Assembly (NCBI RefSeq): GCF_900302485.1
Contig: NZ_OMOI01000001.1
Coordinates: 1,178,001 to 1,242,000, forward strand
Length of the DNA stretch: 64,000 nucleotides
Reading direction: 5' to 3'
Origin: Aliiroseovarius pelagivivens
Lineage (GTDB): Bacteria; Pseudomonadota; Alphaproteobacteria; Rhodobacterales; Rhodobacteraceae
The notes under the pieces were generated by a model, which did not search any database, was not told the origin of the DNA, and saw only the letters and a list, made by a program, of their open reading frames with translations. Below, piece after piece: positions 38,073 through 63,761 of the stretch. Made by a program: the position numbers and the translations under genes. How positions within the stretch are numbered: position 1 is the first letter of the stretch; each line of letters starts with the position of its first letter.

Positions 38073-38408
38073 ATGACCTATGTCGTCCAAGATAACTGCA
38101 TCGCCTGCAAATACACTGACTGTGTGGAAGTTTGCCCCGTAGATTGTTTCTATGAAGGTGAAAACATGCTGGTCATTCATCCAGACGAATGCATCGACTG
38201 TGGTGTGTGTGAACCGGAATGTCCGGCGGACGCCATTCGTGCGGATACCGAGCCGGGGACGGAAAAATGGGTTGAGTTCAACCGCAAATACTCGGAACTG
38301 TGGCCCGTGATCATCGAGCGCAAGGACCCGCTGCCCGAAGCTGAAGAGCGTGACGGTGAAGACGGCAAGCTCGAGAAATATTTCTCGGAAGAACCTGCCG
38401 AGCAATAA
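38073..38408 (+). CDS. fdxA: 7Fe-type ferredoxin FdxA
   Basis: A 111-residue small electron carrier. [19 protein letters not shown] and [12 protein letters not shown] give the cysteine pattern of ferredoxins with one [3Fe-4S] and one [4Fe-4S] cluster (the first CxxxxxxC lacks one ligand). GAAGGTG precedes the ATG. The fdxA-carD neighbourhood is common in alphaproteobacteria. The partner enzymes are not shown by the sequence. Confidence 0.94.
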
Positions 38409-50689: not shown

Positions 50690-51058
50690 TTATTCGGCCG
50701 CTTTACGTTCTTCCGAAGCCGGTGTGTCGATCGAGCAGAACAGCTCGTAGATCACTTCCAATATACGCCGTGGGCGATCATCTGTCAGCGAATAATAGAT
50801 CGTCTTACCTTCGCGACGCGGCGTAACAAGACCTTCAAGGCGCAAGCGGGCCAGCTGTTGCGAAACGGCGGCCTGACGGGCGTGAAGCAGCTTTTCAAGC
50901 TCGGTCACGGATTTCTCGCCTGTCACCAGATGGCATAGGATCATCAAACGCCCTTCATGGCTGATGGCCTTGAGAAGGGTCGAAGCATCGCAGGCGCTGG
51001 TCATCATCTTGTCCAGCTCGTCGTGCGACATGTCTTCTTTTATGACAGGCAGTACCAT
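50690..51058 (-). CDS. soxR: SoxR, ArsR-family sulfide/persulfide-responsive repressor
   Basis: A 122-residue winged-helix ArsR regulator. The helix-turn-helix is about residues 51-80 (VTELEKLLHARQAAVSQQLARLRLEGLV), then the wing RREGKTIYYSL. Cys42 (LMILCHL) and Cys108 (YELFCSI) correspond to the two reactive cysteines of SqrR/BigR, which form a tetrasulfide bridge with persulfide and release DNA; Cys23 is a third. SoxR represses sox genes in relatives. ATG 51058 has AGGA directly adjacent; ATG 51031 (MSHDELDK) is an alternative start. Confidence 0.9.
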   Translation of the reverse strand: MVLPVIKEDMSHDELDKMMTSACDASTLLKAISHEGRLMILCHLVTGEKSVTELEKLLHARQAAVSQQLARLRLEGLVTPRREGKTIYYSLTDDRPRRILEVIYELFCSIDTPASEERKAAE

Positions 51059-51604: not shown

Positions 51605-51658
51605 CCCGGAGCCCAGTTCTTGACAATCGGTTGATCTTCGTCTCATGCAATAGATAAA

Positions 51659-51679
51659 TTGAATATGTTGTAAATTCAA
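51659..51679. promoter_or_regulatory. Inverted repeat at the soxV translation start region
   Basis: TTGAAT (51659-51664) and ATTCAA (51674-51679) form a perfect 6-bp inverted repeat with a 9-bp centre, in the divergent soxS-soxV region and touching the soxV ribosome site (AAGGA, 51678-51682). The half-sites run in the opposite sense to the ATTC-N8-GAAT boxes elsewhere in the cluster, so it may be a different operator or a weak variant. Confidence 0.4.
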
Positions 51680-51689
51680 GGAAGCCTTC

Positions 51690-52427
51690 ATGCTGGACAT
51701 ATCCTTTGCCGGAGCGGCGCTTGCGGGGCTTCTGTCGTTCTTCTCGCCCTGCATCCTTCCGATGGTTCCATTCTATCTGTGTTATATGGCCGGGCTGTCG
51801 ATGACCGAGTTGACGGGTGAAGGGAAGATCAATCCAGGCGCGCAACGCAGGCTGGTTCTTGCGGCAATTGCCTTTGCCTTTGGCGTTACGTCGATCTTCA
51901 TGTTGCTGGGGCTTGGTGCCACGGCGTTGGGCGCGGCGTTTGCACAGTACCAGCAGGAACTCAGTTATTTGGGTGCGGTGATACTGGTTTTGTTCGGACT
52001 ACATTTTCTGGGGGTTATGCGAATCCCCTTTCTGTATCGCGAGGCGCGACTGGAGGGGCCAACACAGCCCAGCTCTATTCTTGGCGCCTATCTGATGGGG
52101 CTTGCATTCGGATTTGGATGGACGCCCTGCGTCGGCCCTGCGCTGGCTTCGATCCTGATGATCGCAAGTGGGATGGGTGATTTGTGGCGGGGTGCCTTGC
52201 TTCTGGCAGTTTACGGCCTGGCCATGACGCTGCCATTCGTTTTGGCAGCCATGTTCGCACGACCCTTTCTGGCTTGGGTCGGACGCAACAGGAAGTACTT
52301 GCCTTGGGTCGAGAAGGTCATGGGCGCTATGCTGGTCCTGTTTGCGGTTCTGATCGTGTCAGGGCAGGTGAATAGGATCGGCCAGTGGATGCTTGAGACA
52401 TTTCCGACCCTCGGAAATGTCGGCTAG
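51690..52427 (+). CDS. soxV: SoxV, CcdA-family thiol-disulfide electron carrier
   Basis: A 245-residue inner-membrane protein with six hydrophobic segments that moves reducing equivalents from cytoplasmic thioredoxin to the periplasm. The two CcdA repeats carry the redox cysteines in FFSPCILPMVPFYLCYM (residues 17-33) and FGWTPCVGPALASIL (about 142-156). In Sox systems SoxV reduces SoxW or SoxS and through them SoxYZ. AAGGA precedes ATG 51690. No soxW gene follows; soxX is next. Confidence 0.93.
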   Translation: MLDISFAGAALAGLLSFFSPCILPMVPFYLCYMAGLSMTELTGEGKINPGAQRRLVLAAIAFAFGVTSIFMLLGLGATALGAAFAQYQQELSYLGAVILVLFGLHFLGVMRIPFLYREARLEGPTQPSSILGAYLMGLAFGFGWTPCVGPALASILMIASGMGDLWRGALLLAVYGLAMTLPFVLAAMFARPFLAWVGRNRKYLPWVEKVMGAMLVLFAVLIVSGQVNRIGQWMLETFPTLGNVG

Positions 52428-52505
52428 GCTATCTTTCTGACGGGTTCTTGCGTTTGCGTGAAATAAAGCAATCACGAGTCGTTCTTTTTTTGCAAGATAA
52501 TATTA

Positions 52506-52521
52506 ATTCAAATAACGGAAT
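52506..52521. promoter_or_regulatory. SqrR/BigR-type box upstream of soxX
   Basis: ATTC (52506-52509), 8 bp, GAAT (52518-52521), exactly the ATTC-N8-GAAT form I recall for the SqrR operator. It lies 62 bp before the soxX start in an AT-rich 156-bp intergenic region, and SoxR encoded nearby is the obvious candidate to bind it. Confidence 0.65.
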
Positions 52522-52583
52522 TTGATGTTGCGAAAATTTCCTCACCTGCGTAGTTTGGCCGGACAACGGTTATGGGAGGAAAC

Positions 52584-53060
52584 ATGAAGCGGACAACGAT
52601 CGCGCTTTGCACCCTGCTCAGCGCAGGGCTGGGAGCGGCACAAGCCGAAACGGTAGCGCCAACCGCAATTGCGTTCGAAGAGGGGGCTGTTGCCCAATCT
52701 TTGACCGGTGTTGCAGGAAATGCAGAAGAGGGCGCCAAAGTCGTTTCAGCGAAATCGCAGGGCAATTGTGTTGCCTGTCATGAAATCACGGATCTGGCCG
52801 ATGTGCCGTTCCACGGGGAAGTTGGCCCCATGCTGGATGGTGCGGGTGACCGCTGGAGCGAAGCAGAGCTTCGCGGCATCCTTGTGGACGCCAAGATGAC
52901 ATTCGATGAATCGATGATGCCATCATTCTACAAGACCGAAGGTTTTATTCGCCTTGGCAAAGCCTACACCGGCAAAGCCCATGAAGGTGATGTCGAACCG
53001 CTGCTGAGTGCTCAGCAGATTGAAGATGTCGTTGCCTATCTGATGACGCTCAAAGACTGA
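52584..53060 (+). CDS. soxX: SoxX, c-type cytochrome subunit
   Basis: A 158-residue periplasmic monoheme cytochrome. It has a signal peptide (residues 1-21, AAQA-ET), heme motif CVACH at 62-66 and a probable Met axial ligand at 111 or 112 (ESMMPSFY). SoxX pairs with SoxA to attach thiosulfate to the SoxY cysteine and takes up the two electrons. GGGAGGA precedes ATG 52584. It heads the soxXYZA run. Confidence 0.95.
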   Translation: MKRTTIALCTLLSAGLGAAQAETVAPTAIAFEEGAVAQSLTGVAGNAEEGAKVVSAKSQGNCVACHEITDLADVPFHGEVGPMLDGAGDRWSEAELRGILVDAKMTFDESMMPSFYKTEGFIRLGKAYTGKAHEGDVEPLLSAQQIEDVVAYLMTLKD

Positions 53061-53100
53061 GCGGATCGGGGCAAGGAAATACACTCACAGGAGACTAGAG

Positions 53101-53517
53101 ATGAAGTTCACTCGACGTGATGCTCTGGCACTTGGGCTCGGCGCGACAGCCGTTGCCATGTTGCCGATGCGCGCACTGGCTGCTGCCGATGAAGCGATTG
53201 CTGCTTTCACCGGTGGTGCCGAGACTGGCGAAGGTGGGATCACCCTGACCGCGCCGGAAATCGCTGAGAACGGCAACACCGTTCCGGTTTCGGTCGACGC
53301 CCCCGGCGCCGTTTCGATCTTGATGCTGGCCGCAGGCAACCCGACTCCGGGTGTCGCACAGTTCAACTTCGGCGAGGCTGCAGGTTCGCAGTCGGCTTCG
53401 ACCCGTATTCGTCTGGCTGGCACGCAAGACGTAGTTGCAATCGCCAAGATGGCCGATGGCAGCTTCGTGAAAGCATCGTCGACCGTAAAAGTAACCATCG
53501 GCGGCTGCGGCGGCTAA
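53101..53517 (+). CDS. soxY: SoxY, sulfur substrate carrier
   Basis: A 138-residue protein exported by the Tat pathway (twin Arg at 5-6, MKFTRRDALALGLG). The C-terminus is GGCGG, with Cys136 the covalent sulfur-carrying residue on a flexible arm. With SoxZ it presents the sulfur chain to SoxAX, SoxB and SoxCD in turn. AGGAG lies upstream of the ATG. Confidence 0.96.
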   Translation: MKFTRRDALALGLGATAVAMLPMRALAAADEAIAAFTGGAETGEGGITLTAPEIAENGNTVPVSVDAPGAVSILMLAAGNPTPGVAQFNFGEAAGSQSASTRIRLAGTQDVVAIAKMADGSFVKASSTVKVTIGGCGG

Positions 53518-53537
53518 TAGATTAGGAGACCAGAGAT

Positions 53538-53867
53538 ATGGCAAAAGGTGCAAAGCCCCGCGTAAAAGTCCCCAAGACGGCAGCTGCCGGCGACGTGGTG
53601 ACCCTGAAGACCCTGATCAGCCACAAGATGGAATCGGGTCAGCGCAAGGACAAAGAGGGTAACCTCATCCCGCGCTCGATCATCAACCGCTTCACATGCG
53701 AGCTGAACGGCAAGATGGTTATCGATGTAACGCTGGAACCAGCGATTTCGACCAACCCCTATGTAGAATTCGATGCCAAAGTCGACGAAGCCGGTGAGTT
53801 CAAATTCACTTGGTATGACGATGACGGCGATGTCTACGAGACGACAAAGCCGATCGCGATCGCTTGA
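53538..53867 (+). CDS. soxZ: SoxZ, sulfur carrier partner
   Basis: A 109-residue immunoglobulin-like protein without its own signal peptide; it is co-exported with SoxY through SoxY's Tat signal. PRVKVPKTAAAGDVVTLKTLISHKMESGQRKD and PRSIINRFTCELNGKMV match SoxZ. TAGGAGACC precedes the ATG, 20 bp after soxY. Confidence 0.95.
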   Translation: MAKGAKPRVKVPKTAAAGDVVTLKTLISHKMESGQRKDKEGNLIPRSIINRFTCELNGKMVIDVTLEPAISTNPYVEFDAKVDEAGEFKFTWYDDDGDVYETTKPIAIA

Positions 53868-53891
53868 GGTCAGCGCAGGGAGGAGAACATA

Positions 53892-54740
53892 ATGAAAAAA
53901 GGCATCGCAGCACTCGTAGCTGCCTCGACCATCTTCGGGGCAGCCGCCGCAACAGCCGATGAAAGCGCTGAACTCACCATCAATGGTGAGATCGACATCG
54001 TAACGAAAACGGCCGCGCCCGCGCATCTATCGGATGCACTGGACGAGGTTCTTTCAGGTTGGCGTTTCCGGTCGGATCAGACCCAGGAAATGCAAATGGA
54101 TGACTTTGACAACCCCGGCATGCTGGGCGTTGAAGCAGGCATCGAAGTCTGGAACACCGTTGACGGTTCGAAGGGCAAATCCTGTGCGGATTGCCACGGC
54201 GAGCCCGAAGAAATGGCAGGCGTGAAAGCCGTCTATCCGAAGTGGAATGATCAGGCCGAGCAGGTCTTCACCCTTCAGATGGCGACCAACAACTGCCGCG
54301 AAAACGCGATGGGCGCCGAGCCTTGGAAGTATGATGCTTCCGACGCGATCAATATCGAAGCACTGTTGTCTTCGGTTTCGCGCGGTATGCCCGTGAATGT
54401 CGCCATTGACGGTCCGGCCGAAGCCATGTGGGAGCAGGGCAAAGAGCTCTACTATACCCGCACTGGTCAGCTGGAAATGAGCTGTGCCAACTGTCACGAA
54501 GACAATTATGGCAACATGATCCGCGCCGATCACCTGTCGCAGGGTCAGATCAACGGCTTCCCGACCTATCGTCTGAAAAACACCAAGCTGAACGGGGTGC
54601 ATTCGCGCTTCAAAGGCTGTGTACGTGACACACGTGCCCACACCTACAGCCCGGGCTCGGAAGAGTTCATTGCTCTTGAGCTTTATGTCGCATCGCGCGG
54701 CAATGGTCTGTCGGTCGAAGGCCCGTCTGTCCGCAACTAA
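53892..54740 (+). CDS. soxA: SoxA, diheme cytochrome subunit
   Basis: A 282-residue periplasmic protein with a signal peptide (cleavage near residue 22), heme motifs CADCH (98-102) and CANCH (198-202), the conserved Cys135 in the first domain, and the catalytic Cys243 in RFKGCVRDTRA, which becomes a persulfide heme ligand. It is the catalytic partner of SoxX. GGGAGGAG lies before the ATG. A strong terminator follows, before soxB. Confidence 0.95.
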   Translation: MKKGIAALVAASTIFGAAAATADESAELTINGEIDIVTKTAAPAHLSDALDEVLSGWRFRSDQTQEMQMDDFDNPGMLGVEAGIEVWNTVDGSKGKSCADCHGEPEEMAGVKAVYPKWNDQAEQVFTLQMATNNCRENAMGAEPWKYDASDAINIEALLSSVSRGMPVNVAIDGPAEAMWEQGKELYYTRTGQLEMSCANCHEDNYGNMIRADHLSQGQINGFPTYRLKNTKLNGVHSRFKGCVRDTRAHTYSPGSEEFIALELYVASRGNGLSVEGPSVRN

Positions 54741-54747
54741 ATCAAAG

Positions 54748-54784
54748 ACCCCGCCCGAACGGATTTCGGGCGGGGTTTTCTTTA
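54748..54784 (+). terminator. Terminator between soxA and soxB
   Basis: ACCCCGCCCG (54748-54757) and CGGGCGGGGT (54767-54776) pair perfectly with a nine-base loop, followed by TTTCTTTATT. It divides the sox region into soxXYZA and soxBCD transcripts, or lowers the level of the latter. Confidence 0.88.
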
Positions 54785-54851
54785 TTCGAACACATTCAAT
54801 CCCCGGCATGGGTGAGGCGTGCAAGGGCTTGAAAATCAAGGAAAACCGCTC

Positions 54852-56549
54852 ATGATTTCTCGCCGCGACTTTCTTCAGGTCTCGATGGCTGCGTCTGCGC
54901 TTTATGGAACGTCTGGCTTTGGCAACTGGGCCAAACTGGCGGCTCAGCAAGCGCTGACCCAAGATGACCTTCTGAAGTTCGACACGTTTGGCAATGTCAG
55001 CCTGATCCACATCACTGACATTCACGCCCAGCTGAAACCGATTTATTTCCGCGAGCCCGAGATCAATCTGGGCGTTGGTGCTGCCAATGGGCAGATGCCG
55101 CACGTCACGGGTGCGGACTTCCGCAAGGCCTACGGAATCGATGATGGTTCGCCGTCGGCCTACGCTCTGACCTATAACGATTTCACCTCGCTGGCAGGGG
55201 CCTATGGCAAAGTCGGCGGCATGGATCGCGTGGCGACCGTTGTGAACGCCATTCGCGCTGATCGCCCTGACGCACTGCTTCTGGACGGCGGCGATACGTG
55301 GCACGGCTCGTACACCTGTCACCACACTGAAGGTCAGGATGTGGTAAACGTGATGAACGCGCTGAAGCCCGATGCGATGACCTTCCACTGGGAGTTCACG
55401 CTGGGATCTGAGCGTGTAAACGAGATCGTCGAAGGTCTGCCCTTCGCGGCTCTTGGTCAGAACATTTTTGACGCCGAGTGGGATGAGCCCGCCGAGCTGT
55501 TCAAGCCTTACAAATTCTTCGAGCGTGGTGGCGTGAAGGTGGCCGTGATTGGTCAGGCCTTCCCCTATATGCCGATCGCTAACCCGCGCTGGATGTTCCC
55601 CGAGTACTCGTTCGGGATCCGTGACGAGAACATGCAAGAGATGGTGGACGAAGTGCGTGCCGCTGGTGCCGAGCTTGTTGTCTGCCTAAGCCACAACGGC
55701 TTTGACGTGGACAAGAAGATGGCCACCCGCGTGACGGGCATCGACGTGATCCTGTCGGGTCACACCCATGACGCGCTGCCCGAGCCGGTGCAGGTCGAAC
55801 AGACCTTCATCATCGCGTCGGGCTCGAACTCGAAATTTGTCAGCCGCATCGATCTGGATGTGCGCGACGGCAAGATGATGGGTATCCGCCACAAGCTGAT
55901 CCCGATCTTCGCTGATGTCATCACGCCCGATGCAACGATCACTAAGCTGATCGATGACCAGCGCGCGCCGTATAAAGCCGAGCTGGAAGAGGTGATCGGC
56001 CACACCGACTCGCTTCTGTATCGCCGTGGCAACTTCAACGGCAGCTGGGATGACCTGATCTGTGACGCGCTGATCAACGAGCGTGAAGCCGATATCGCCA
56101 TGTCGCCCGGCGTGCGTTGGGGTCCGTCGATCCTGCCCGGTCAGGCGATCACCCGCGAAGATATCTGGAACGTGACCTCGATGTCCTATGGCGAGGTGTA
56201 TCGCACGGAAATGACTGGTGAATTCATTCACACCATTTTGGAAGATGTGGGCGACAACCTGTTCAACCCTGATCCCTACTATCAGCAGGGTGGTGACATG
56301 GTGCGCATCGGTGGCATGGGCTATCGCATCGACATCAACAAGCCGCAGGGCGAACGCATCACCGATATGACACTTCTGAAAACCGGCGAGAAGATCGATC
56401 CGGCCAAGACCTATGTGGTCGCAGGCTGGGCTTCGGTCAACGAAGGTACCGAAGGTCCGCAGATCTGGGATGTCGTCGAAAGCCACATCAAGAAACAAGG
56501 CACCATCAAGCTGGATCCGAACAACTCGGTTCAGGTGGTGGGCGCGTAA
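54852..56549 (+). CDS. soxB: SoxB, sulfate thiohydrolase
   Basis: A 565-residue dimanganese enzyme of the 5'-nucleotidase family that hydrolyses the terminal sulfonate from SoxY-bound thiosulfate. Tat-type signal MISRRDFLQ at the N-terminus; metal ligands in TDIHAQ (about 55-60), GGDTWHGS (146-153), SHNGFD and GHTHDALPEP; FHWEFTLG (178-185) is the SoxB version of the GNHEFD motif. ATG 54852 has AAGGA upstream. Confidence 0.96.
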   Translation: MISRRDFLQVSMAASALYGTSGFGNWAKLAAQQALTQDDLLKFDTFGNVSLIHITDIHAQLKPIYFREPEINLGVGAANGQMPHVTGADFRKAYGIDDGSPSAYALTYNDFTSLAGAYGKVGGMDRVATVVNAIRADRPDALLLDGGDTWHGSYTCHHTEGQDVVNVMNALKPDAMTFHWEFTLGSERVNEIVEGLPFAALGQNIFDAEWDEPAELFKPYKFFERGGVKVAVIGQAFPYMPIANPRWMFPEYSFGIRDENMQEMVDEVRAAGAELVVCLSHNGFDVDKKMATRVTGIDVILSGHTHDALPEPVQVEQTFIIASGSNSKFVSRIDLDVRDGKMMGIRHKLIPIFADVITPDATITKLIDDQRAPYKAELEEVIGHTDSLLYRRGNFNGSWDDLICDALINEREADIAMSPGVRWGPSILPGQAITREDIWNVTSMSYGEVYRTEMTGEFIHTILEDVGDNLFNPDPYYQQGGDMVRIGGMGYRIDINKPQGERITDMTLLKTGEKIDPAKTYVVAGWASVNEGTEGPQIWDVVESHIKKQGTIKLDPNNSVQVVGA

Positions 56550-56631
56550 TCCATTGAACACCCGCCGTCCGGCCATCACGGCAAGACGGCGGAATATCTT
56601 TAGCCAAACAGCCAAATAGGAGGTTTGACAT

Positions 56632-57912
56632 ATGTCGACTGAAACCAAAGGCACCGGGACCTCGCGTCGCGGTTTCCTGAAAGGGGCCGCTGCAACGGGT
56701 GCAGCCCTTGGGGCCGCAGGTGCTGCCCGTGCCGAGGGCGATCCGCTGATCACCGAAGTGCAGGAATGGGCATCCGGCCTGGGCGAGGGCGTAGATGCCA
56801 CGCCGTATGGTATGCCGATCGAATTTGAAAGCGATGTTGTGCGTCGCAACGTGGAATGGCTGACCGCCGACACGATTTCCTCGATCAACTTCACACCGAT
56901 CCACGCACTGGACGGTACGATTACCCCGCAGGGGTGTGCGTTTGAGCGCCACCATTCGGGTGCGATCACGCTGAAGAAAGAAGACTATCGTCTGATGATC
57001 AACGGTCTGGTCGATACACCGCTGGTGTTCACCTATGCAGACCTCGAGCGTTTCCCGCGTGTGCAGCAAACATTCTTCCTAGAATGTGCGGCCAACACCG
57101 GCATGGAATGGGCGGGCTCGCAGTTGAACGGCGCGCAGTACACCCACGGTATGATCCACAACATGGAATACACCGGCGTTAGCCTGCGTACCCTTTTGGA
57201 AGAGGCTGGTCTGGATACTGCCGGCGAGCTGAAAGACAAGTGGGTTTATGTCGAAGGTGCGGATGCCTCGTCGAACGGCCGCTCGATCCCGATGGAAAAA
57301 GCGCTGGACGACTGCATGGTGGCCTTTAAAGCCAACGGCGAAGCGCTGCGGATGGAGCATGGCTATCCGGTTCGACTGGTTGTTCCCGGTTGGGAAGGCA
57401 ACATGTGGGTTAAGTGGCTGCGCCGTATCGAGGTTATGGATGCCCCGGTCGAAAGCCGCGAAGAGACCTCGAAATACACTGACACGCTGGAAGACGGCAC
57501 CTCGCGCAAGTGGACTTGGGCGATGGACGCAAAGTCGGTTGTCACCAGCCCCAGCCCGCAGATGCCGATTCAGCACGGCAAAGGCCCGCTGGTTGTTACT
57601 GGTCTGGCATGGTCTGGCAACGGTGCGATCACCGCAGTCGATGTGTCGCTGGATGGCGGCGTGACTTGGCAAGAGGCGCGCCTGGCTGAACCCGGCAAGA
57701 AAATGGCGTTGACCCGTTTCTATCTGGATATCAATTGGGATGGATCCGAGATGTTCGTTCAATCGCGCGCGATGGACGAAACCGGATACGTTCAGCCCAC
57801 CAAAGCGCAACTGCGCGAAGTGCGCGGTCTGAACTCGATCTATCACAACAACTGCATCCAGACGTGGCACGTCAACGCAAACGGGGAGGCAAACAATGTC
57901 GAAGTTTCCTAA
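56632..57912 (+). CDS. soxC: SoxC, molybdenum sulfane dehydrogenase subunit
   Basis: A 426-residue periplasmic protein of the sulfite oxidase family. Tat signal with twin Arg at 12-13 (SRRGFLKG). The molybdenum-coordinating Cys is Cys152 in FLECAANTGMEW. The C-terminal dimerisation domain contains GLAWSGNGAITAVDVSLDGGVTW. With SoxD it oxidises the sulfane sulfur remaining on SoxY, six electrons, which prevents sulfur globule formation. TAGGAGG lies before the ATG; the stop overlaps soxD. Confidence 0.95.
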   Translation: MSTETKGTGTSRRGFLKGAAATGAALGAAGAARAEGDPLITEVQEWASGLGEGVDATPYGMPIEFESDVVRRNVEWLTADTISSINFTPIHALDGTITPQGCAFERHHSGAITLKKEDYRLMINGLVDTPLVFTYADLERFPRVQQTFFLECAANTGMEWAGSQLNGAQYTHGMIHNMEYTGVSLRTLLEEAGLDTAGELKDKWVYVEGADASSNGRSIPMEKALDDCMVAFKANGEALRMEHGYPVRLVVPGWEGNMWVKWLRRIEVMDAPVESREETSKYTDTLEDGTSRKWTWAMDAKSVVTSPSPQMPIQHGKGPLVVTGLAWSGNGAITAVDVSLDGGVTWQEARLAEPGKKMALTRFYLDINWDGSEMFVQSRAMDETGYVQPTKAQLREVRGLNSIYHNNCIQTWHVNANGEANNVEVS

Positions 57913-58987
57913 AATCCTGATGGCAGCTTCGGTTGCCGCTTTGACCGCCGCCCCTGCGATGGCCGAGAAGCTCGGCCTTGGCCGGACTGCGACAGACGCA
58001 GAAATCGCAGCTTGGAACCTGGATGTCTTCCCGGACGGATCGAACCTGCCGGAAGGTAAGGGCGATGTGTGGACCGGTGAAGAAGTTTTCGCCGACGCCT
58101 GTGCCGCATGTCACGGTGAGTTCGCGGAAGGTGCGGGCAACTGGCCGAAACTGGCGGGTGGTGCGGATACGCTTGACCACGAAGATCCGCTGAAAACGGT
58201 CGGCTCCTACTGGCCGTATCTGTCGACCACGTTCGACTATGTGCGCCGTTCGATGCCGTTTGGTGCCGCTGGTACGCTGTCGGATGACGATGTCTATGCC
58301 ATCGTCGCCTACATCCTGTACTCGAACGATCTGGTGGATGATGATTTCGTCCTGTCGAAAGAGACATTCAGCGATGTGGTCCTGCCGAATGCAGAAGGCT
58401 TCATCGTGGATGATCGCGCTGAAACCGAGTACGGCACCTTTAACAACCGCTGCATGAGCGATTGTAAAACAGGCGCAGTCGAGATCACCACAACTGTGGT
58501 TTTCCCCGGCGACCCGAACTCGGGTTTTGACGCGACCCCGATCAGCCAAGCTGTGATGGGCACCGCGGGCGCTGCAGCGGAACCAGCTGAAGAAGCCGCG
58601 ACTGAAGCAGCAGCGGAAGAGCCTGCCGTTGTCGAAGAAGCAGCTGCTCCTGTCGCTGCACTGGATGCCGAATTGGTCGCCAAAGGCGAAAAGGTCTTCA
58701 AGAAATGTAAGGCCTGCCACAAGATCGGTGACAAAGCCAAAAACGGCACCGGTCCTATGCTGAATGGCGTGTTTGGTCGCAATGCAGGTACGGTTGATGG
58801 GTTCAAATACTCTAAACCGATGCTGGCTGCTGCCGAAGGTGGTCTGGTTTGGGACGAAGCCGAACTGGCTGCCTATCTGGCCAACCCGAAGAAATACATG
58901 AAGGGCACCAAGATGTCTTTTGCGGGTCTGAAGAAGGACAAGGATGTCGCGGCGATTCTGGAATTCCTGAAGTCGCACAGCCAATAA
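57896..58987 (+). CDS. soxD: SoxD, diheme cytochrome subunit
   Basis: A 363-residue periplasmic cytochrome that takes electrons from SoxC. Signal peptide residues 1-23 (APAMA-EK); heme motif 1 CAACH at 69-73; heme motif 2 CKACH at 271-275, in a class I cytochrome c domain joined by an Ala/Glu/Pro-rich linker (about 224-255). The start overlaps soxC by 17 bases, with GGGGAGG upstream. Full length, unlike some single-heme SoxD versions. Confidence 0.94.
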   Translation: MSKFPKILMAASVAALTAAPAMAEKLGLGRTATDAEIAAWNLDVFPDGSNLPEGKGDVWTGEEVFADACAACHGEFAEGAGNWPKLAGGADTLDHEDPLKTVGSYWPYLSTTFDYVRRSMPFGAAGTLSDDDVYAIVAYILYSNDLVDDDFVLSKETFSDVVLPNAEGFIVDDRAETEYGTFNNRCMSDCKTGAVEITTTVVFPGDPNSGFDATPISQAVMGTAGAAAEPAEEAATEAAAEEPAVVEEAAAPVAALDAELVAKGEKVFKKCKACHKIGDKAKNGTGPMLNGVFGRNAGTVDGFKYSKPMLAAAEGGLVWDEAELAAYLANPKKYMKGTKMSFAGLKKDKDVAAILEFLKSHSQ

Positions 58988-59008
58988 TCTCGGATATCAT
59001 GAATTCGA

Positions 59009-59041
59009 AAACGGGCGCTGCAGATAATGCAGCGCCCGTTT
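59009..59041 (+). terminator. Hairpin between soxD and soxE
   Basis: AACGGGCGCTGC (59010-59021) and GCAGCGCCCGTT (59029-59040), perfect 12-bp stem with a seven-base loop, flanked by AA and followed only by TGCC. The T-run is too short for a strong terminator; it may act as a processing or 3'-end protection hairpin. Confidence 0.6.
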
Positions 59042-59128
59042 GCCATTGCGCAACATTATTGCCTCTTATGCATGCATTTGTATATGATAGTTATTGAGTG
59101 GATTGGGCTTGCAGTTTATGGTGTCCCC

Positions 59129-59839
59129 ATGAACTGGATTAGAAACGCTGCGATTGGGCTGACGGTTGCGATATGCGCCACAACGCCTTCTTTTTCCAAT
59201 GAAATCGGCAATGCCGAAGATGGTGAAAAACTCTGGACGGAATGTAAGTCTTGCCATGCAATTGGCAAAGGCGCCAAGAACCGTGTGGGACCCCATCTGA
59301 ATGGTATTTTCGGCCGCCGGGCCGGATCAGAAGAGGACTTCAATTACTCCAAAGGGCTGGCGCGCATGGGCAAGGATGGCTTGATGTGGGAGTTTGATCT
59401 TTTGGATCGCTATATCGAAAACCCAAAGGCCTTCGCGTCCGATACGCGCATGTCTTATCGTGGGTTGAAAGACGAACAGAAACGGGCTGATCTGCTCGCA
59501 TTTCTGCGTCGATACTCGGACAATCCCGGCGACATTCCGGAAGCGGCACCCACCGTGGCAGGCACAGATCACGATGTTGACCCCGCTATTCTCGCTATCC
59601 AAGGCGACCCGGAATATGGTGAATATCTGTCCTCAGAATGCACCACTTGCCACCAACTGACAGGCGACAACGAAGGCATTCCGGGGATTATCGGTTGGCC
59701 GGCAGAAGATTTCGTGATCGCCATGCACGCCTATAAAGACAAATTCCGCCCGCATCCTGTGATGCAGATGATGGCCGGGCGCCTGTCCAACGACGAGATT
59801 GCGGCTTTGGCCGCTTACTTCGAAGAAGTTGATCCGTAG
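59129..59839 (+). CDS. soxE: SoxE, diheme c-type cytochrome
   Basis: A 236-residue periplasmic cytochrome with a signal peptide (residues 1-23) and two CxxCH motifs, CKSCH (39-43) and CTTCH (171-175). The first domain is class I cytochrome c-like (GKGAKNRVGPHLNGIFGRRAG, with a Met ligand near MSYRGL). SoxE pairs with flavoprotein SoxF as a flavocytochrome c. I chose ATG 59129 (MNWIRNAAIG), which gives the signal peptide directly; longer frames upstream run into the soxD hairpin. Confidence 0.9.
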   Translation: MNWIRNAAIGLTVAICATTPSFSNEIGNAEDGEKLWTECKSCHAIGKGAKNRVGPHLNGIFGRRAGSEEDFNYSKGLARMGKDGLMWEFDLLDRYIENPKAFASDTRMSYRGLKDEQKRADLLAFLRRYSDNPGDIPEAAPTVAGTDHDVDPAILAIQGDPEYGEYLSSECTTCHQLTGDNEGIPGIIGWPAEDFVIAMHAYKDKFRPHPVMQMMAGRLSNDEIAALAAYFEEVDP

Positions 59840-59917
59840 TTAAATTTTACGTAGACCTGAATGGGTTTACGAACACGCGACGGTTGTGCGCCTTTCACAA
59901 CCAATAGGGAGGAAGAC

Positions 59918-61192
59918 ATGAAAATTAACAGACGTTTGTTCATGGGCGGTGCGGCCGCCGGGGCCGCAGCGACCACGCTGACTGCGCCGATGGTGCATGC
60001 GGCCGGACATGGTAAGCCGAAAGTCGTTGTGGTTGGCGGCGGGGCAGGCGGTGCGACCGCTGCGCGCTATATTGCAAAGGACTCGAAAGGTGAAATCGAA
60101 GTTACTTTGGTTGAACCGAGCCGCAGCTATTACACCTGCTTCTTCTCGAACCTCTATATGGCGGGCTTCCGCGAGCTGGGGTCGATTGCGCATAGCTATG
60201 GTAAACTGGCGTCGGAATACGGCATCAACGTGGTGCATGACTGGGCCATTGGCATCGACCGCGAAGCACGTACCGTGTCGCTTGCTGGTGGTGCTACACT
60301 GAACTATGACCGCTTGATCCTGTCGCCGGGCATCGATTTTGTCGACGGCGCGGTTGAAGGTTGGGACGTTACTCATCAGAACGCTATGCCGCATGCCTAC
60401 AAGGCTGGTTCGCAATCCGAGCTTTTGAAAGCGCAGGTCGAAGCCATGCCCGAAGGTGGTACTTTCGCTATGGTGGCTCCGCCCAACCCGTTCCGCTGCC
60501 CTCCTGGCCCGTATGAGCGTATCTCGATGATCGCGCATATCCTGAAGGAAAAGAACCCGACGGCGAAAATCATCATTGCGGACCCGAAAGAGAAGTTCTC
60601 GAAGATGGCTCTGTTCCAGGACGGTTGGTCGCGTCACTATGATGGCATGATTGACTGGATTGGTGGCGACTTTGGTGGCGGCAATGTCTCGGTCAATCCG
60701 CATGACATGACCGTTACAATCGATGGCGAAGTAAACAAGGTTGACGTCTGTAACGTCATTCCGGCGATGAAAGCGGGCAAGATCTGCGACATGGCTGGTA
60801 TCACCGAAGGTAATTGGGCCCCGGTGAACCCGCATACGATGCAGTCGCGCGTGGACGAAAATATCCATGTTCTGGGCGACGCAAGCTCGCAAGGCGATAT
60901 GCCGAAATCGGGCTTTGCGGCCAACAGTCAGGCAAAAGTCGCTGCGATGGCAGTACGCTCGGCACTGACCGGATCGAAGCTGTTCCCGGCGAAGTTCACC
61001 AACACCTGCTGGTCTTTGATCAGCGATGATGATGGTGTGAAAGTTGGCGCAAGCTACGAAGCCACGGACGAGAAGATCGCCAAGGTTGACGGCTTCATCA
61101 GCAAAGTGGGCGAAGACGCTGAACTGCGTCAGGCTACTTACGAAGAAAGTGTTGGCTGGTACGCCGGGATCACCTCGGACATGTTTGGCTGA
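59918..61192 (+). CDS. soxF: SoxF, flavocytochrome c sulfide dehydrogenase flavoprotein
   Basis: A 424-residue periplasmic FAD protein that can oxidise sulfide. Tat signal (NRRLFMGGAAAG, Arg 5-6). FAD motif VVVVGGGAGGATAAR (36-50); YYTCFFSNLYMAG and APPNPFRCPPGPYERISM hold the two redox cysteines; the C-terminal domain is FCSD-type (FTNTCWSLI). GGGAGGA lies before ATG 59918. With SoxE it forms the flavocytochrome; in Sox systems it helps restore activity of oxidised carriers. Confidence 0.94.
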   Translation: MKINRRLFMGGAAAGAAATTLTAPMVHAAGHGKPKVVVVGGGAGGATAARYIAKDSKGEIEVTLVEPSRSYYTCFFSNLYMAGFRELGSIAHSYGKLASEYGINVVHDWAIGIDREARTVSLAGGATLNYDRLILSPGIDFVDGAVEGWDVTHQNAMPHAYKAGSQSELLKAQVEAMPEGGTFAMVAPPNPFRCPPGPYERISMIAHILKEKNPTAKIIIADPKEKFSKMALFQDGWSRHYDGMIDWIGGDFGGGNVSVNPHDMTVTIDGEVNKVDVCNVIPAMKAGKICDMAGITEGNWAPVNPHTMQSRVDENIHVLGDASSQGDMPKSGFAANSQAKVAAMAVRSALTGSKLFPAKFTNTCWSLISDDDGVKVGASYEATDEKIAKVDGFISKVGEDAELRQATYEESVGWYAGITSDMFG

Positions 61193-61203
61193 TTTCCTTG
61201 CTA

Positions 61204-61223
61204 ATATTCGCCGTGGCGAATAT
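61204..61223. promoter_or_regulatory. SqrR/BigR-type box upstream of the DUF302 gene
   Basis: ATATTCGCC-GT-GGCGAATAT is a 20-bp near-continuous palindrome that contains ATTC (61206-61209), 8 bp, GAAT (61218-61221), the same spacing as at soxX and at 61858-61873. It lies just after the soxF stop and about 90 bp before the DUF302 gene. In RNA it could also form a tight hairpin. Confidence 0.6.
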
Positions 61224-61310
61224 GTTGAAATCAACGCGGGGTCCGGTAGTCCGGGCCCCGTTTCATTCAAGGGCTTTGCGCGAACGGCCCTCAAATCAGG
61301 AGGAAAACTT

Positions 61311-61772
61311 ATGCGCAAATTTCTTGGAACGGTTCTGGTGGCCGCCGCTGCTTTGACCGCACCGGCTTTTGCCGATGGTCATGGTAAACAGTTGAGCGAT
61401 CACGCCATCACTTATGCTTTTAACGGCGACTTTGGCGACGCAACCTTTGCGGTTGAAACTGCCATCGTGGGGCAGGGGCTGGTGATTGACTATGTCAGTC
61501 ATACCGGTGAAATGCTGGAGCGCACAAAAGGCGATGTCGGTTCGGATGTGAAGATTTTTGAGGCCGCAGATATTTTCCTGTTCTGCTCGGCCAAGGTCAG
61601 CCGTGAAGTGATGGAGGCGGATGCGGCCAACATCTCGTTCTGCCCCTATAGCATCTTTGTGACGGACACGAACGGCGAGGTCCGCGTTGGATATCGCACA
61701 TATCCGGATGGCGAGATGCAGAAAGTACAAGCTATGCTGGACGGAATTGTGCAGGAAGCGATTGCCGAATAA
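61311..61772 (+). CDS. Periplasmic DUF302 protein of the Sox cluster
   Basis: A 153-residue exported protein: signal peptide residues 1-21 (APAFA-DG), then a DUF302 domain with the typical pattern ADIFLFCSAKVSREVMEADAANISFCPYSIFVTDTNGEVRVGY. Two cysteines (FLFCSA and SFCPY) are conserved in this subgroup and suggest thiol chemistry, but no function is established. AGGAGG lies before ATG 61311. An ATTC-N8-GAAT box upstream and a terminator downstream suggest its own transcription unit. Confidence 0.85.
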   Translation: MRKFLGTVLVAAAALTAPAFADGHGKQLSDHAITYAFNGDFGDATFAVETAIVGQGLVIDYVSHTGEMLERTKGDVGSDVKIFEAADIFLFCSAKVSREVMEADAANISFCPYSIFVTDTNGEVRVGYRTYPDGEMQKVQAMLDGIVQEAIAE

Positions 61773-61793
61773 AGACGATTTGGCTTGAAAAAC

Positions 61794-61830
61794 AAGGCCC
61801 CGCATGTCGCAATGACACGCGGGGCCTTTT
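61794..61830 (+). terminator. Terminator of the DUF302 gene
   Basis: AAGGCCCCGC (61794-61803) and GCGGGGCCTT (61819-61828) form a 10-bp stem, with ATGT/ACAC extending it imperfectly; TTTTG follows. Confidence 0.8.
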
Positions 61831-61853
61831 GCTTGACGTGAGGGCGAGTGAAA

Positions 61854-61877
61854 TTACATTCAAAAAAATGAATGTAA
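61854..61877. promoter_or_regulatory. SqrR/BigR-type box upstream of the pmpA gene
   Basis: TTACATTC (61854-61861), eight bases AAAAAAAT, then GAATGTAA (61870-61877): a perfect palindrome of 8-bp arms containing ATTC-N8-GAAT. It lies 67 bp before the first YeeE gene, the position expected for the BigR-controlled pmpAB-blh operon of other alphaproteobacteria. Confidence 0.75.
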
Positions 61878-61943: not shown

Positions 61944-62378
61944 ATGATTGAAACTGAATTTACACCGCTGGCAGCATCTCTCGGAGGCGCCTTGATCGGC
62001 TTGGCCTCGGTGCTGTTGATGTGGGTGCGCGGCAATGTGCTGGGAGCGACCGGCATCTTGGCGGGGTTCATGCAACCCAGCAGTTCGGCTGACTGGGCTT
62101 GGCGCGCGGCCATTCTGGCCGGGATGTTGACTGGTCCTTTCGTCTATCTGTTCATCACTGGTGGTTTCCCTGAAATCCAAGTGCCTGTCAGCACGCTTTC
62201 GATGATCGTCGGGGGTGTCATTGTCGGGATCGGCGTGACCTATGGGTCAGGCTGTACGTCAGGGCATGGCGTCTGCGGAATGTCGCGCCTGTCACCGCGC
62301 AGTTTCGTCGCCACGATCAGCTTCATGGCGGGAATCACCCTCATGGTGTTCGTCACACGCCACATCTTTGGCCTGTAA
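61944..62378 (+). CDS. pmpA: YeeE/YedE half-transporter, PmpA-like
   Basis: A 144-residue inner-membrane protein, half the size of full YeeE, with four hydrophobic segments. TYGSGCTSGHGVCGMSRLSPRS is the YeeE signature with its conserved cysteines, thought to pass thiosulfate or a related sulfur species. It is paired with the next gene to make a heteromeric channel, as in bigR-pmpAB-blh operons. GAGG lies six bases before ATG 61944. Confidence 0.9.
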   Translation: MIETEFTPLAASLGGALIGLASVLLMWVRGNVLGATGILAGFMQPSSSADWAWRAAILAGMLTGPFVYLFITGGFPEIQVPVSTLSMIVGGVIVGIGVTYGSGCTSGHGVCGMSRLSPRSFVATISFMAGITLMVFVTRHIFGL

Positions 62379-62390
62379 GGAGGGTTCGAT

Positions 62391-62834
62391 ATGCATTTGA
62401 TCGTCATCTATGTCATCGGCCTGATCTTCGGCCTTGGTATCTCAATCTCGGGCATGGCCAATCCGGCTAAAGTCCTGAACTTCTTCGATTTCGCGGGCAT
62501 CTGGGATCCAAGCCTGATCTTCGTGATGGGCGCTGCCATTCTGGTCACCGCTCCCGGTTACTTTCTGGTTCTTCGCGGACCAAAACCTATCTTCGGCAAT
62601 GCGTTCACGCTGCCGGGCACCAAGTTGATTGATCGCCGTCTGGTTGGCGGATCCTTCACCTTTGGACTGGGCTGGGGACTGGCTGGCTTTTGCCCGGGTG
62701 CCTCGCTTCCCGTGATCTCGACCGGCAACCCGGACGTTCTGATTTTCACGGCCTCATTTATCGTGGGTATCTTCATTGCCCGCTACATGATCCAGCGCAG
62801 CGCGCACCAGCGCGACGCCGCACCAGCAAGCTAA
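62391..62834 (+). CDS. pmpB: YeeE/YedE half-transporter, PmpB-like
   Basis: A 147-residue inner-membrane protein with four hydrophobic segments, the second half of the YeeE pair. FGLGISISGMANPAKVLNFFDFAGIWDPSLIFVMG and GLAGFCPGASLP are typical of this half. AAGGAGGG lies six bases before ATG 62391, 12 bp after the partner gene. Confidence 0.9.
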   Translation: MHLIVIYVIGLIFGLGISISGMANPAKVLNFFDFAGIWDPSLIFVMGAAILVTAPGYFLVLRGPKPIFGNAFTLPGTKLIDRRLVGGSFTFGLGWGLAGFCPGASLPVISTGNPDVLIFTASFIVGIFIARYMIQRSAHQRDAAPAS

Positions 62835-62873: not shown

Positions 62874-63761
62874 ATGACTGACTATCCCGTAAACACCGAC
62901 CTGATCCCCGAAGTGAAAGCTTTCTTCGAGCCGGATTCGAACACGATTTCCTATGTGGTCAAGGACCCGACCTCGGATGCTTGTGCGGTAATCGACAGCG
63001 TCATGGACATTGATTATGCCGCTGGCCGTATCTCGCATGAGCATGCCGATGAGATCATCGCGTATATCAAGGCCGAAGGGCTGAAGCTGGAGTGGCTGAT
63101 CGAAACGCACGTCCATGCTGACCACTTGTCGGGCGCGCCCTACATTCAAGAGCAGTTGGGCGGCAAGATCGGCATTGGCAGTCAGATCACTGTTGTGCAG
63201 GACGTGTTCGGAAAGGTCTTCAACGAAGGTACCGAATTCCAGCGCGATGGCAGCCAGTTTGATGCCCTTTTCGAGGATGGCGATACCTACAAGATCGGCA
63301 ACATGGACGTTTTTGCCATGCACACGCCGGGTCACACGCCCGCCTGTATGGTGCATGTGATCGGGAATGCTGGTTTCGTGGGGGACACCTTATTCATGCC
63401 GGATGGTGGCTCGGCCCGTGCCGACTTCCCGGGTGGGGACGCAGGTATCTTGTATGACTCGATCCAGAAGGTTCTGGCTCTGCCTGACGAAACCCGTCTA
63501 TTCATGTGTCACGACTACGGCCCCAATGGCCGTGACATTCAGTGGGAAACCACTGTGGCCGATGAAAAGGAGCACAACATTCATGTGGGTGCCGGGAAAA
63601 CGCGCGAAGAATTCGTGAAGTTCCGCACCGAGCGGGATGCTCAGCTGGACATGCCGCGCCTGATCATTCCATCGCTACAGGTCAACATGCGTGCGGGCGA
63701 GATGCCCCCCGCAGATGAGGACGGAAAAACCTTCCTGAAGGTTCCCGTAAACGCGCTTTAA
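62874..63761 (+). CDS. blh: Persulfide dioxygenase-like metallo-beta-lactamase hydrolase
   Basis: A 295-residue MBL-fold protein of the Blh/ETHE1 group. The metal motif is THVHADHLSG (79-84 HVHADH), followed by HTPGHTPACMVHV, VGDTLF and the final His in MCHDYGPNGRD. ETHE1-like enzymes oxidise glutathione persulfide to sulfite; Blh links sulfide oxidation to BigR. It lies in the putative BigR-type operon after the two YeeE genes. AAAGGA lies before ATG 62874. In Agrobacterium and Xylella Blh is fused to a DUF442 domain, here encoded by the next gene. Confidence 0.92.
   Translation: MTDYPVNTDLIPEVKAFFEPDSNTISYVVKDPTSDACAVIDSVMDIDYAAGRISHEHADEIIAYIKAEGLKLEWLIETHVHADHLSGAPYIQEQLGGKIGIGSQITVVQDVFGKVFNEGTEFQRDGSQFDALFEDGDTYKIGNMDVFAMHTPGHTPACMVHVIGNAGFVGDTLFMPDGGSARADFPGGDAGILYDSIQKVLALPDETRLFMCHDYGPNGRDIQWETTVADEKEHNIHVGAGKTREEFVKFRTERDAQLDMPRLIIPSLQVNMRAGEMPPADEDGKTFLKVPVNAL

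Follow-up and report, generated by a model that had tools for sequence, protein, structure and literature searches.

A conserved set of probable SqrR-type operators at the sulfur genes of Aliiroseovarius pelagivivens, with a possible extension to complex I

We analysed a 64,000-nucleotide stretch of the Aliiroseovarius pelagivivens genome (the window) that contains the sox genes for thiosulfate oxidation, and here describe a palindrome, ATTC-N8-GAAT, that recurs upstream of its sulfur genes. The palindromes are likely to be operators of one SqrR/SoxR-type repressor of the ArsR family, in this genome most likely SoxR. Together they appear to form a genuine and conserved set of SqrR-type operators that is mostly of a familiar type and may extend to complex I and carbon metabolism. 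What we observe are the sites, their neighbouring genes and, where it was examined, their conservation, as well as a cysteine pair in SoxR and the single copy of this regulator in the genome; from these we infer the binding of SoxR to each site, the signal and the repression. The window contains the following intergenic copies:

52506 to 52521, plus strand: operator-like palindrome ATTCAAATAACGGAAT, upstream of soxXYZAB and followed by TTGATGTTGCG
61206 to 61221, plus strand: operator-like palindrome ATTCGCCGTGGCGAAT, between soxF and the DUF302 gene
61858 to 61873, plus strand: operator-like palindrome ATTCAAAAAAATGAAT, upstream of pmpA

An earlier note on this DNA had reported these three exact copies as intergenic and upstream of genes, and both the motif scan of the window and the gene positions bear this out: the ATG codons of soxX (52584), the DUF302 gene (61311) and pmpA (61944) are 62, 89 and 70 bp away, respectively. 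A fourth exact match (38175-38190) falls within a ferredoxin open reading frame (ORF; 38073-38408). The same note had expected far less than one match per 64 kb by chance. This is wrong, since 100 dinucleotide-shuffled versions of the window contain 1.18 exact matches on average and 5 at most, and three of the shuffles reach four or more. With one mismatch allowed, the window has 12 matches versus a shuffle mean of 27.2, so the one-mismatch scan is uninformative. The three-site count by itself is thin evidence and, the rarity argument failing, the functional support comes from conservation.

At the family level, the soxX and rhodanese sites are kept. The survey covered the 30 best SoxV loci, our own included, out of 198 family genomes; soxR, soxV and soxX occur together in 28 of the 30, and the soxX count rests on the 28 loci that have this gene, omitting L060 and L063, where it was not found. 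Of these 28 loci, 24 have an exact soxX site; TTGTTGTTGCG follows in 13 of the 28, with variants elsewhere. For the rhodanese gene, which lies outside the window, 25 of the 30 best family loci, with our own among them, have an exact site upstream.

Within the genus Aliiroseovarius, 19 of 21 loci carry the pmpA site and 16 of 21 the DUF302 site, our own counted in both. The former is absent from L181 and L182; the latter is missing from L179 to L182, and L175 is incomplete there, yet has the pmpA site inside it. In the alignment test, which demands the letters of our genome at the eight fixed positions, the pmpA site persists in 17 of 18 aligned relatives and none of 154 neighbouring control windows equals it; the DUF302 site is kept in 15 of 15, and none of 104 control windows equals it. 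L175 and L181 were left out of the pmpA alignment, and additionally L179, L180 and L182 out of the DUF302 alignment; if the three loci with different surroundings that the latter omits are counted as misses, its figure becomes 15 of 18. The DUF302 spacer diverges freely (GCCGTGGC, GATTTGGC, GCATGAGC, GTCAGAAA, AGCAGTAA and others), with both half-sites kept. Two sites outside the window are also kept at this level, upstream of sqr (8 of 10 genus loci, own included) and of a second YeeE pair, yeeE2 (6 of 8 genus relatives).

Sites across the genome

The whole-genome motif scan that the earlier note had called for returned 34 exact sites in the 3.33-Mb genome (99.96% complete); the backwards pattern gives 10. 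By our classification, 14 sites are intergenic and 20 lie in genes, the in-gene class being based on ORF length and on Pfam and NCBIfam checks of some of the ORFs. Seven of the 14 intergenic sites adjoin sulfur genes, namely soxX, the DUF302 gene, pmpA, the second YeeE pair, sqr, the rhodanese gene and tsoY. Outside the window, the intergenic sites are:

C1:629762: second YeeE pair (yeeE2)
C1:795628: sqr
C1:1165133: 117-aa rhodanese; the 16-mer is letter-identical to the pmpA site
C2:118862: tsoY
C1:2193777: hlyD of an RND pump, AcrB-type partner confirmed
C1:951234: nuoA
C2:545397: isocitrate-dehydrogenase-like gene, divergent from a ribokinase-like gene
C1:1616443: AhpD-like (CMD) gene behind a pyruvate dehydrogenase E2 gene
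C2:264575: between dnaA and dnaN, without a clear story
C1:340234 (L003): near an EF-hand gene, without a clear story
C1:1678897 (L018): 3' end of a SoxG-type sarcosine oxidase gene, without a clear story

The sites were ranked by a matrix trained on 46 sites from soxX and rhodanese loci in other genomes, with the fixed eight bases excluded from scoring. The five highest of the 34 scores belong to the sites at the rhodanese gene (14.5), pmpA (14.4), hlyD (14.3), soxX (11.3) and yeeE2 (8.7), followed by tsoY (L025; 8.1), the AhpD-like gene (7.0), sqr (6.8), nuoA (6.7) and the dehydrogenase gene (1.7). All 20 in-gene sites score below zero. The earlier note had named many equally good sites inside unrelated genes as a refutation; for the bare 8-base motif they are present (20 of 34), making it a weak predictor, but those 20 score poorly in the matrix. 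The tsoY site, sixth in rank, was first labelled in-gene and recounted as intergenic only after its score was known, and the L018 site is labelled as coding sequence in the matrix table and counted here as intergenic. The AhpD-like site was not counted in the regulon despite its score, being found in only 6 of 20 genus relatives. We regard the matrix result as supportive rather than decisive.

Several points weigh against a regulon of this kind. The bare motif is not over-represented in the genome, with 34 sites versus about 61 at the window shuffle rate. Four intergenic sites score below zero, at L003 (-2.0), the DUF302 gene (-3.6), L018 (-9.0) and dnaA-dnaN (-10.6), and the matrix partly measures A+T richness, which is typical of intergenic spacers. 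At the family level, the pmpA site is found in 3 of 30 loci, the DUF302 site in 2 of 30 and the sqr site in 3 of 24, own included in each case; the gene surroundings of pmpA and DUF302 are often different in these family loci. In the genus locus L182, DUF302 apparently stands before pmpA and neither has a site. The soxV promoter of our genome is without the element of its relatives, described below, and SoxR scores 94.1 bits versus a cut-off of 155 for the NCBIfam model sulf_sens_BigR. In addition, the PDO, Blh-like and FCSD genes of Rhodobacter capsulatus are reported not to be under SqrR (PMC9995734).

Could the bare motif be a matter of chance, with the soxX site alone being real? The shuffle mean of the window, the 20 in-gene sites and the near absence of the pmpA and DUF302 sites from the wider family fit such an account, to which we nevertheless give the least credence of all: the sites at pmpA, DUF302, sqr, yeeE2 and nuoA are conserved in the genus, those at DUF302 and nuoA with strongly diverging spacers, and the rhodanese site is kept across the family. 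Family and genus conservation largely refute it. For the 61206 palindrome, an RNA hairpin or part of a terminator behind soxF, and no operator, was also considered, as in our genome it is a perfect 20-base palindrome 13 bp past the soxF stop and is followed by a second G+C-rich stem at 61237-61260. However, the spacers of relatives (GTCAGAAA, AGCAGTAA, GCAGGAAA) lose the inner complementarity and keep ATTC and GAAT, and a terminator scan found none at this palindrome. The hairpin idea, for which we see a slight chance, was rejected on this pattern of kept half-sites and lost inner pairing in the genus loci, and we continue to read the palindrome as a probable operator.

SoxR as the candidate regulator

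The proposed regulator is encoded in the sox cluster:

50690 to 51058, minus strand: SoxR, ArsR-type repressor (Pfam HTH_5, 37.4 bits, cut-off 22)

SoxR has cysteines at positions 23, 42 and 108, and Cys42 and Cys108 align with the cysteine pair of its best PDB matches (13ct and 6o8k-6o8o, E 1.4e-37). We take these chains to be RcSqrR, with residue numbering one lower. The sensing cysteines of SqrR are named C41 and C107 (PMC9995734). SoxR combines the ArsR winged helix with the two cysteines by which the SqrR/SoxR/BigR sulfane-sulfur sensors are recognised; by its score on the BigR model it is a relative of BigR and not BigR itself. In this genome it is the sole SqrR/SoxR-like match at E<=0.01. 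Three weak ArsR matches to the BigR model contain no cysteine, one cysteine, and several cysteines with, by eye, none at the first sensing position.

A separate BigR or SqrR, encoded elsewhere and binding the sites in place of SoxR, which the earlier note had named as its other refutation, has a very slight chance in our view. Two SqrR/SoxR-like proteins are indeed present in many family genomes (101 of 120 have a match at E<=1e-20, and 46 of these 101, by our count, have at least two), and the members from E. coli and R. capsulatus reportedly recognise similar DNA (PMC9774250). However, the nearly complete genome has a single match, and the weak ArsR proteins do not show the cysteine pair of SoxR; the candidate was rejected on these grounds. 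SoxR, which the earlier note had named as the probable regulator, is the only close SqrR/SoxR relative found, while the regulon drawn in that note was incomplete: the site set extends past the window to sqr, the rhodanese gene, the second yeeE pair, tsoY, the RND pump, nuoA and the isocitrate-dehydrogenase-like gene. On the simplest reading, one regulator here would do a job that many relatives could split between two paralogues.

We propose that SoxR acts as follows. In the absence of sulfane sulfur, a SoxR dimer would occupy ATTC-N8-GAAT at the promoter or just upstream of it and block soxXYZAB, DUF302, pmpAB-blh, the second YeeE pair, sqr and the rhodanese gene, and probably tsoY and the RND pump too. 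Thiosulfate or sulfide would give rise to per- or polysulfide, by which Cys42 and Cys108 would become linked through extra sulfur atoms; the sulfur-linked SoxR would then leave the DNA, and import, oxidation and persulfide removal would be switched on together. The sites coincide in part with promoter boxes at DUF302, yeeE2 and the rhodanese gene, and at soxX and pmpA they border on the -35 region; the DUF302 palindrome has a TTGCTA -35-like box on one side and a TATGTT -10-like box on the other. Repression can fairly be inferred at DUF302, yeeE2 and the rhodanese gene. The boxes named for these sites were read by eye, except for one weak promoter that a consensus scan placed over the pmpA site (TTGACG-16-TACATT; 1 found versus 0.5 in shuffles); the same scan found no promoter at soxX.

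For marine Rhodobacteraceae, thiosulfate and sulfide can serve as extra energy sources. The earlier note had joined sox, YeeE-type import and persulfide removal under one regulator, a grouping that the gene neighbours of the sites support, and the conserved operators now sketch a probable regulon from sequence alone, including a TsoY-type gene that had not been looked for.

Sites at nuoA and at an isocitrate-dehydrogenase-like gene

The conserved nuoA site and, less firmly, the dehydrogenase site are the possibly new part of the set and would tie carbon respiration to the switch. At nuoA, 18 of 20 genus relatives retain the exact 8-base frame, with spacers that diverge; the dehydrogenase site is kept in 14 of 20, comprising 11 of the 12 best-matching relatives and 3 of the remaining 8. 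Control windows kept as well as the site number 4 of 162 at nuoA and 4 of 114 in the first 12 dehydrogenase relatives, and we presume that they cover promoter boxes and the start region. A wider nuoA survey covered the best 80 of 581 relatives, all from named genomes, with one locus from the genus and 79 from outside it. A site is present within 300 bp upstream of nuoA in 7 of the 80 (the genus locus and 6 of the 79), and elsewhere in the same loci there is one match in 241,196 bases. Five of the six outside sites are at -108 to -122 and one is at -190; two of the five share the same letters, perhaps as near kin. One of the five, from Primorskyibacter aestuariivivens, matches letter for letter the soxX operators of three family genomes. 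The nuoA site thus occurs outside the genus as well, though it is uncommon there.

We tentatively propose, as a possibility with less than an even prospect, that the single SoxR of Aliiroseovarius is a general respiratory switch that controls nuo, and perhaps the isocitrate-dehydrogenase-like gene, besides the dispersed sulfur operons. If this is true, sulfane sulfur would directly reset the balance of electrons from carbon versus reduced sulfur, and a direct link between sulfane sulfur and complex I is predicted. Alternatively, the sulfur sites may be SoxR operators while those at nuoA and the dehydrogenase gene, perhaps with others, are a similar palindrome of a different regulator; we place this only a little short of an even chance. 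It is consistent with the low matrix scores of both sites and with the incomplete retention of the dehydrogenase site in the genus. By eye, the nuoA site ends 15 bp upstream of a -35-like TTGACC, an odd place for a steric repressor, and no link between SqrR/SoxR and nuo was found in the openly accessible literature, subscription papers being mostly outside the scope of the search. On the other hand, the nuoA frame persists in the genus despite the divergence of its spacers, and the five outside-genus loci share a narrow range of positions, one of them with the very letters of soxX operators. At nuoA, SoxR would bind upstream of the -35 box and may act other than as a plain steric repressor.

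Gene neighbourhood and comparison with known systems

The genes and elements around the window sites are:

51659 to 51679, plus strand: soxV promoter element TTGAATATGTTGTAAATTCAA, where relatives mostly carry TGAATATGTGAAT instead
51690 to 52427, plus strand: soxV, DsbD-type transmembrane thiol transporter (Pfam DsbD_TM)
52584 to 53060, plus strand: soxX, first gene of soxXYZAB (TIGR04485, 94.2 bits, cut-off 61)
59918 to 61192, plus strand: soxF, FCSD flavoprotein (Pfam FCSD_central and FCSD-flav_bind on ORF 59861-61192)
61311 to 61772, plus strand: DUF302 protein gene (PF03625, 26.4 bits, cut-off 23)
61944 to 62378, plus strand: pmpA, half-size YeeE/YedE transporter (PF04143; ORF from 61881)
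62391 to 62834, plus strand: pmpB, partner half (PF20398 DUF6691, 150 bits, cut-off 27)
62874 to 63761, plus strand: persulfide-dioxygenase part of Blh (NF040641 positions 140-423 only; 379.7 bits, missing the cut-off of 625)
C1:1241771-1242100, just downstream of the dioxygenase gene: sulfurtransferase part of Blh, phosphatase-like (PF04273, TIGR01244)

The starts of soxX (listed ORF from 52572) and soxF were picked from the sequence, and soxF ends 13 bp before the 61206 site. The products of soxY, soxZ, soxA and soxB all score above their profile cut-offs. Matches to soxV, paralogues counted, are present in 184 of 198 family genomes, DUF302 homologues in 62 of 120, and pmpA in 21 of 21 genus genomes.

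As a target of ATTC-N8-GAAT, soxV was rejected: the motif is found in 0 of 30 family soxV upstream regions, and most relatives have a different element, with the core TGAAT[AG]T[GAT]TGAAT in 24 of the 30. This conserved element, TAATnTGAATATGTGAATnnnTCAAG in relatives, corresponds to 51620-51690 in our genome, where the second GAAT is replaced; it is possibly a second kind of SoxR site. The soxV-soxX gap (52427-52584) is about 150 bp here versus about 700 bp in most family loci. The longer gap presumably makes room for soxW, which seems to be missing here. Between the 61206 palindrome and the DUF302 start, a G+C-rich stem can be read by eye at 61237-61260 (CGGGGTCCGG TAGT CCGGGCCCCG), and several genus loci, also by eye, keep such a stem with changed letters and no constant T run. 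Could this stem be a leader structure and not a simple terminator? Downstream of the split Blh, a SulP sulfate permease comes first, and a TauE/SafE exporter lies three genes beyond it.

Among the distant sites, the sqr product has human mitochondrial SQR as its best solved-structure match (E 1.7e-66). The likely tsoY gene, which runs in the direction opposite to that first assumed at this site, starts 17 bp from the site and encodes a TsoY-family protein (NCBIfam, 523 bits, cut-off 150), whose function we assume from the NCBIfam name; the three-domain thiamine-diphosphate enzyme beside it (L356:1640-3559) is possibly sulfonate-related. Upstream of hlyD and the AcrB-type gene, the RND-pump site reads ATTCACTAATTTGAAT, and behind it stands ATGATCTTGATCAA (L072:3778-3810), one letter off an FNR-type site. 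Behind the rhodanese gene are an ArsR-type gene without cysteines and an AHSA1 gene (L016:3181-3961), which look like an unrelated ArsR-AHSA1 pair; the former was rejected as a regulator, its product having no cysteine.

In the literature cited here, such control is described for SqrR of R. capsulatus and SoxR of Hyphomicrobium. SoxR of our genome is a sequence relative of the former, judging from its match (E 1.4e-37) to chains that we assume are RcSqrR. The operator form, which the earlier note had assigned to SqrR, matches the deduced R. capsulatus SqrR site (PMC9774250), and sites at sqr and the rhodanese gene are again in line with R. capsulatus, where SqrR controls both genes (PMC9995734). 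SqrR binds promoters without persulfide and is released upon formation of an intramolecular tetrasulfide between its two cysteines (PMC9143464, PMC9995734). Unlike in R. capsulatus, the regulator gene here is in the sox cluster, and sites also stand before sox, pmpAB-blh, yeeE2 and nuoA.

The earlier note had likened the pmpA region to the BigR operon; pmpA, pmpB and blh are indeed present, although Blh is split over two genes here. Eight genes, from pmpA to the end of locus L355, were scanned, and no bigR or other ArsR-type gene is among them. The BigR operon of Xylella and Agrobacterium also holds a transporter pair. In both genera, a Blh-type dioxygenase and sulfurtransferase are under BigR (PMC5823870). 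Our locus differs in having two genes rather than one bifunctional blh and an operator of the SqrR form.

For SoxR, repressor regions in sox intergenic DNA have been described in Hyphomicrobium denitrificans, Paracoccus denitrificans and Pseudaminobacter salicylatoxidans, and polysulfide abolishes the binding of H. denitrificans SoxR to such DNA (PMC10451225). H. denitrificans has two regulators, SoxR and sHdrR (PMC12423496), whereas one was found here. Based on gene neighbourhood, sqr, sox, pdo, rhd, RND, TauE, SoxT and PmpAB are likely targets of the group (PMC12423496). Unlike in those predictions, the set here is defined by operators, with nuoA and the isocitrate-dehydrogenase-like gene as possible additions.

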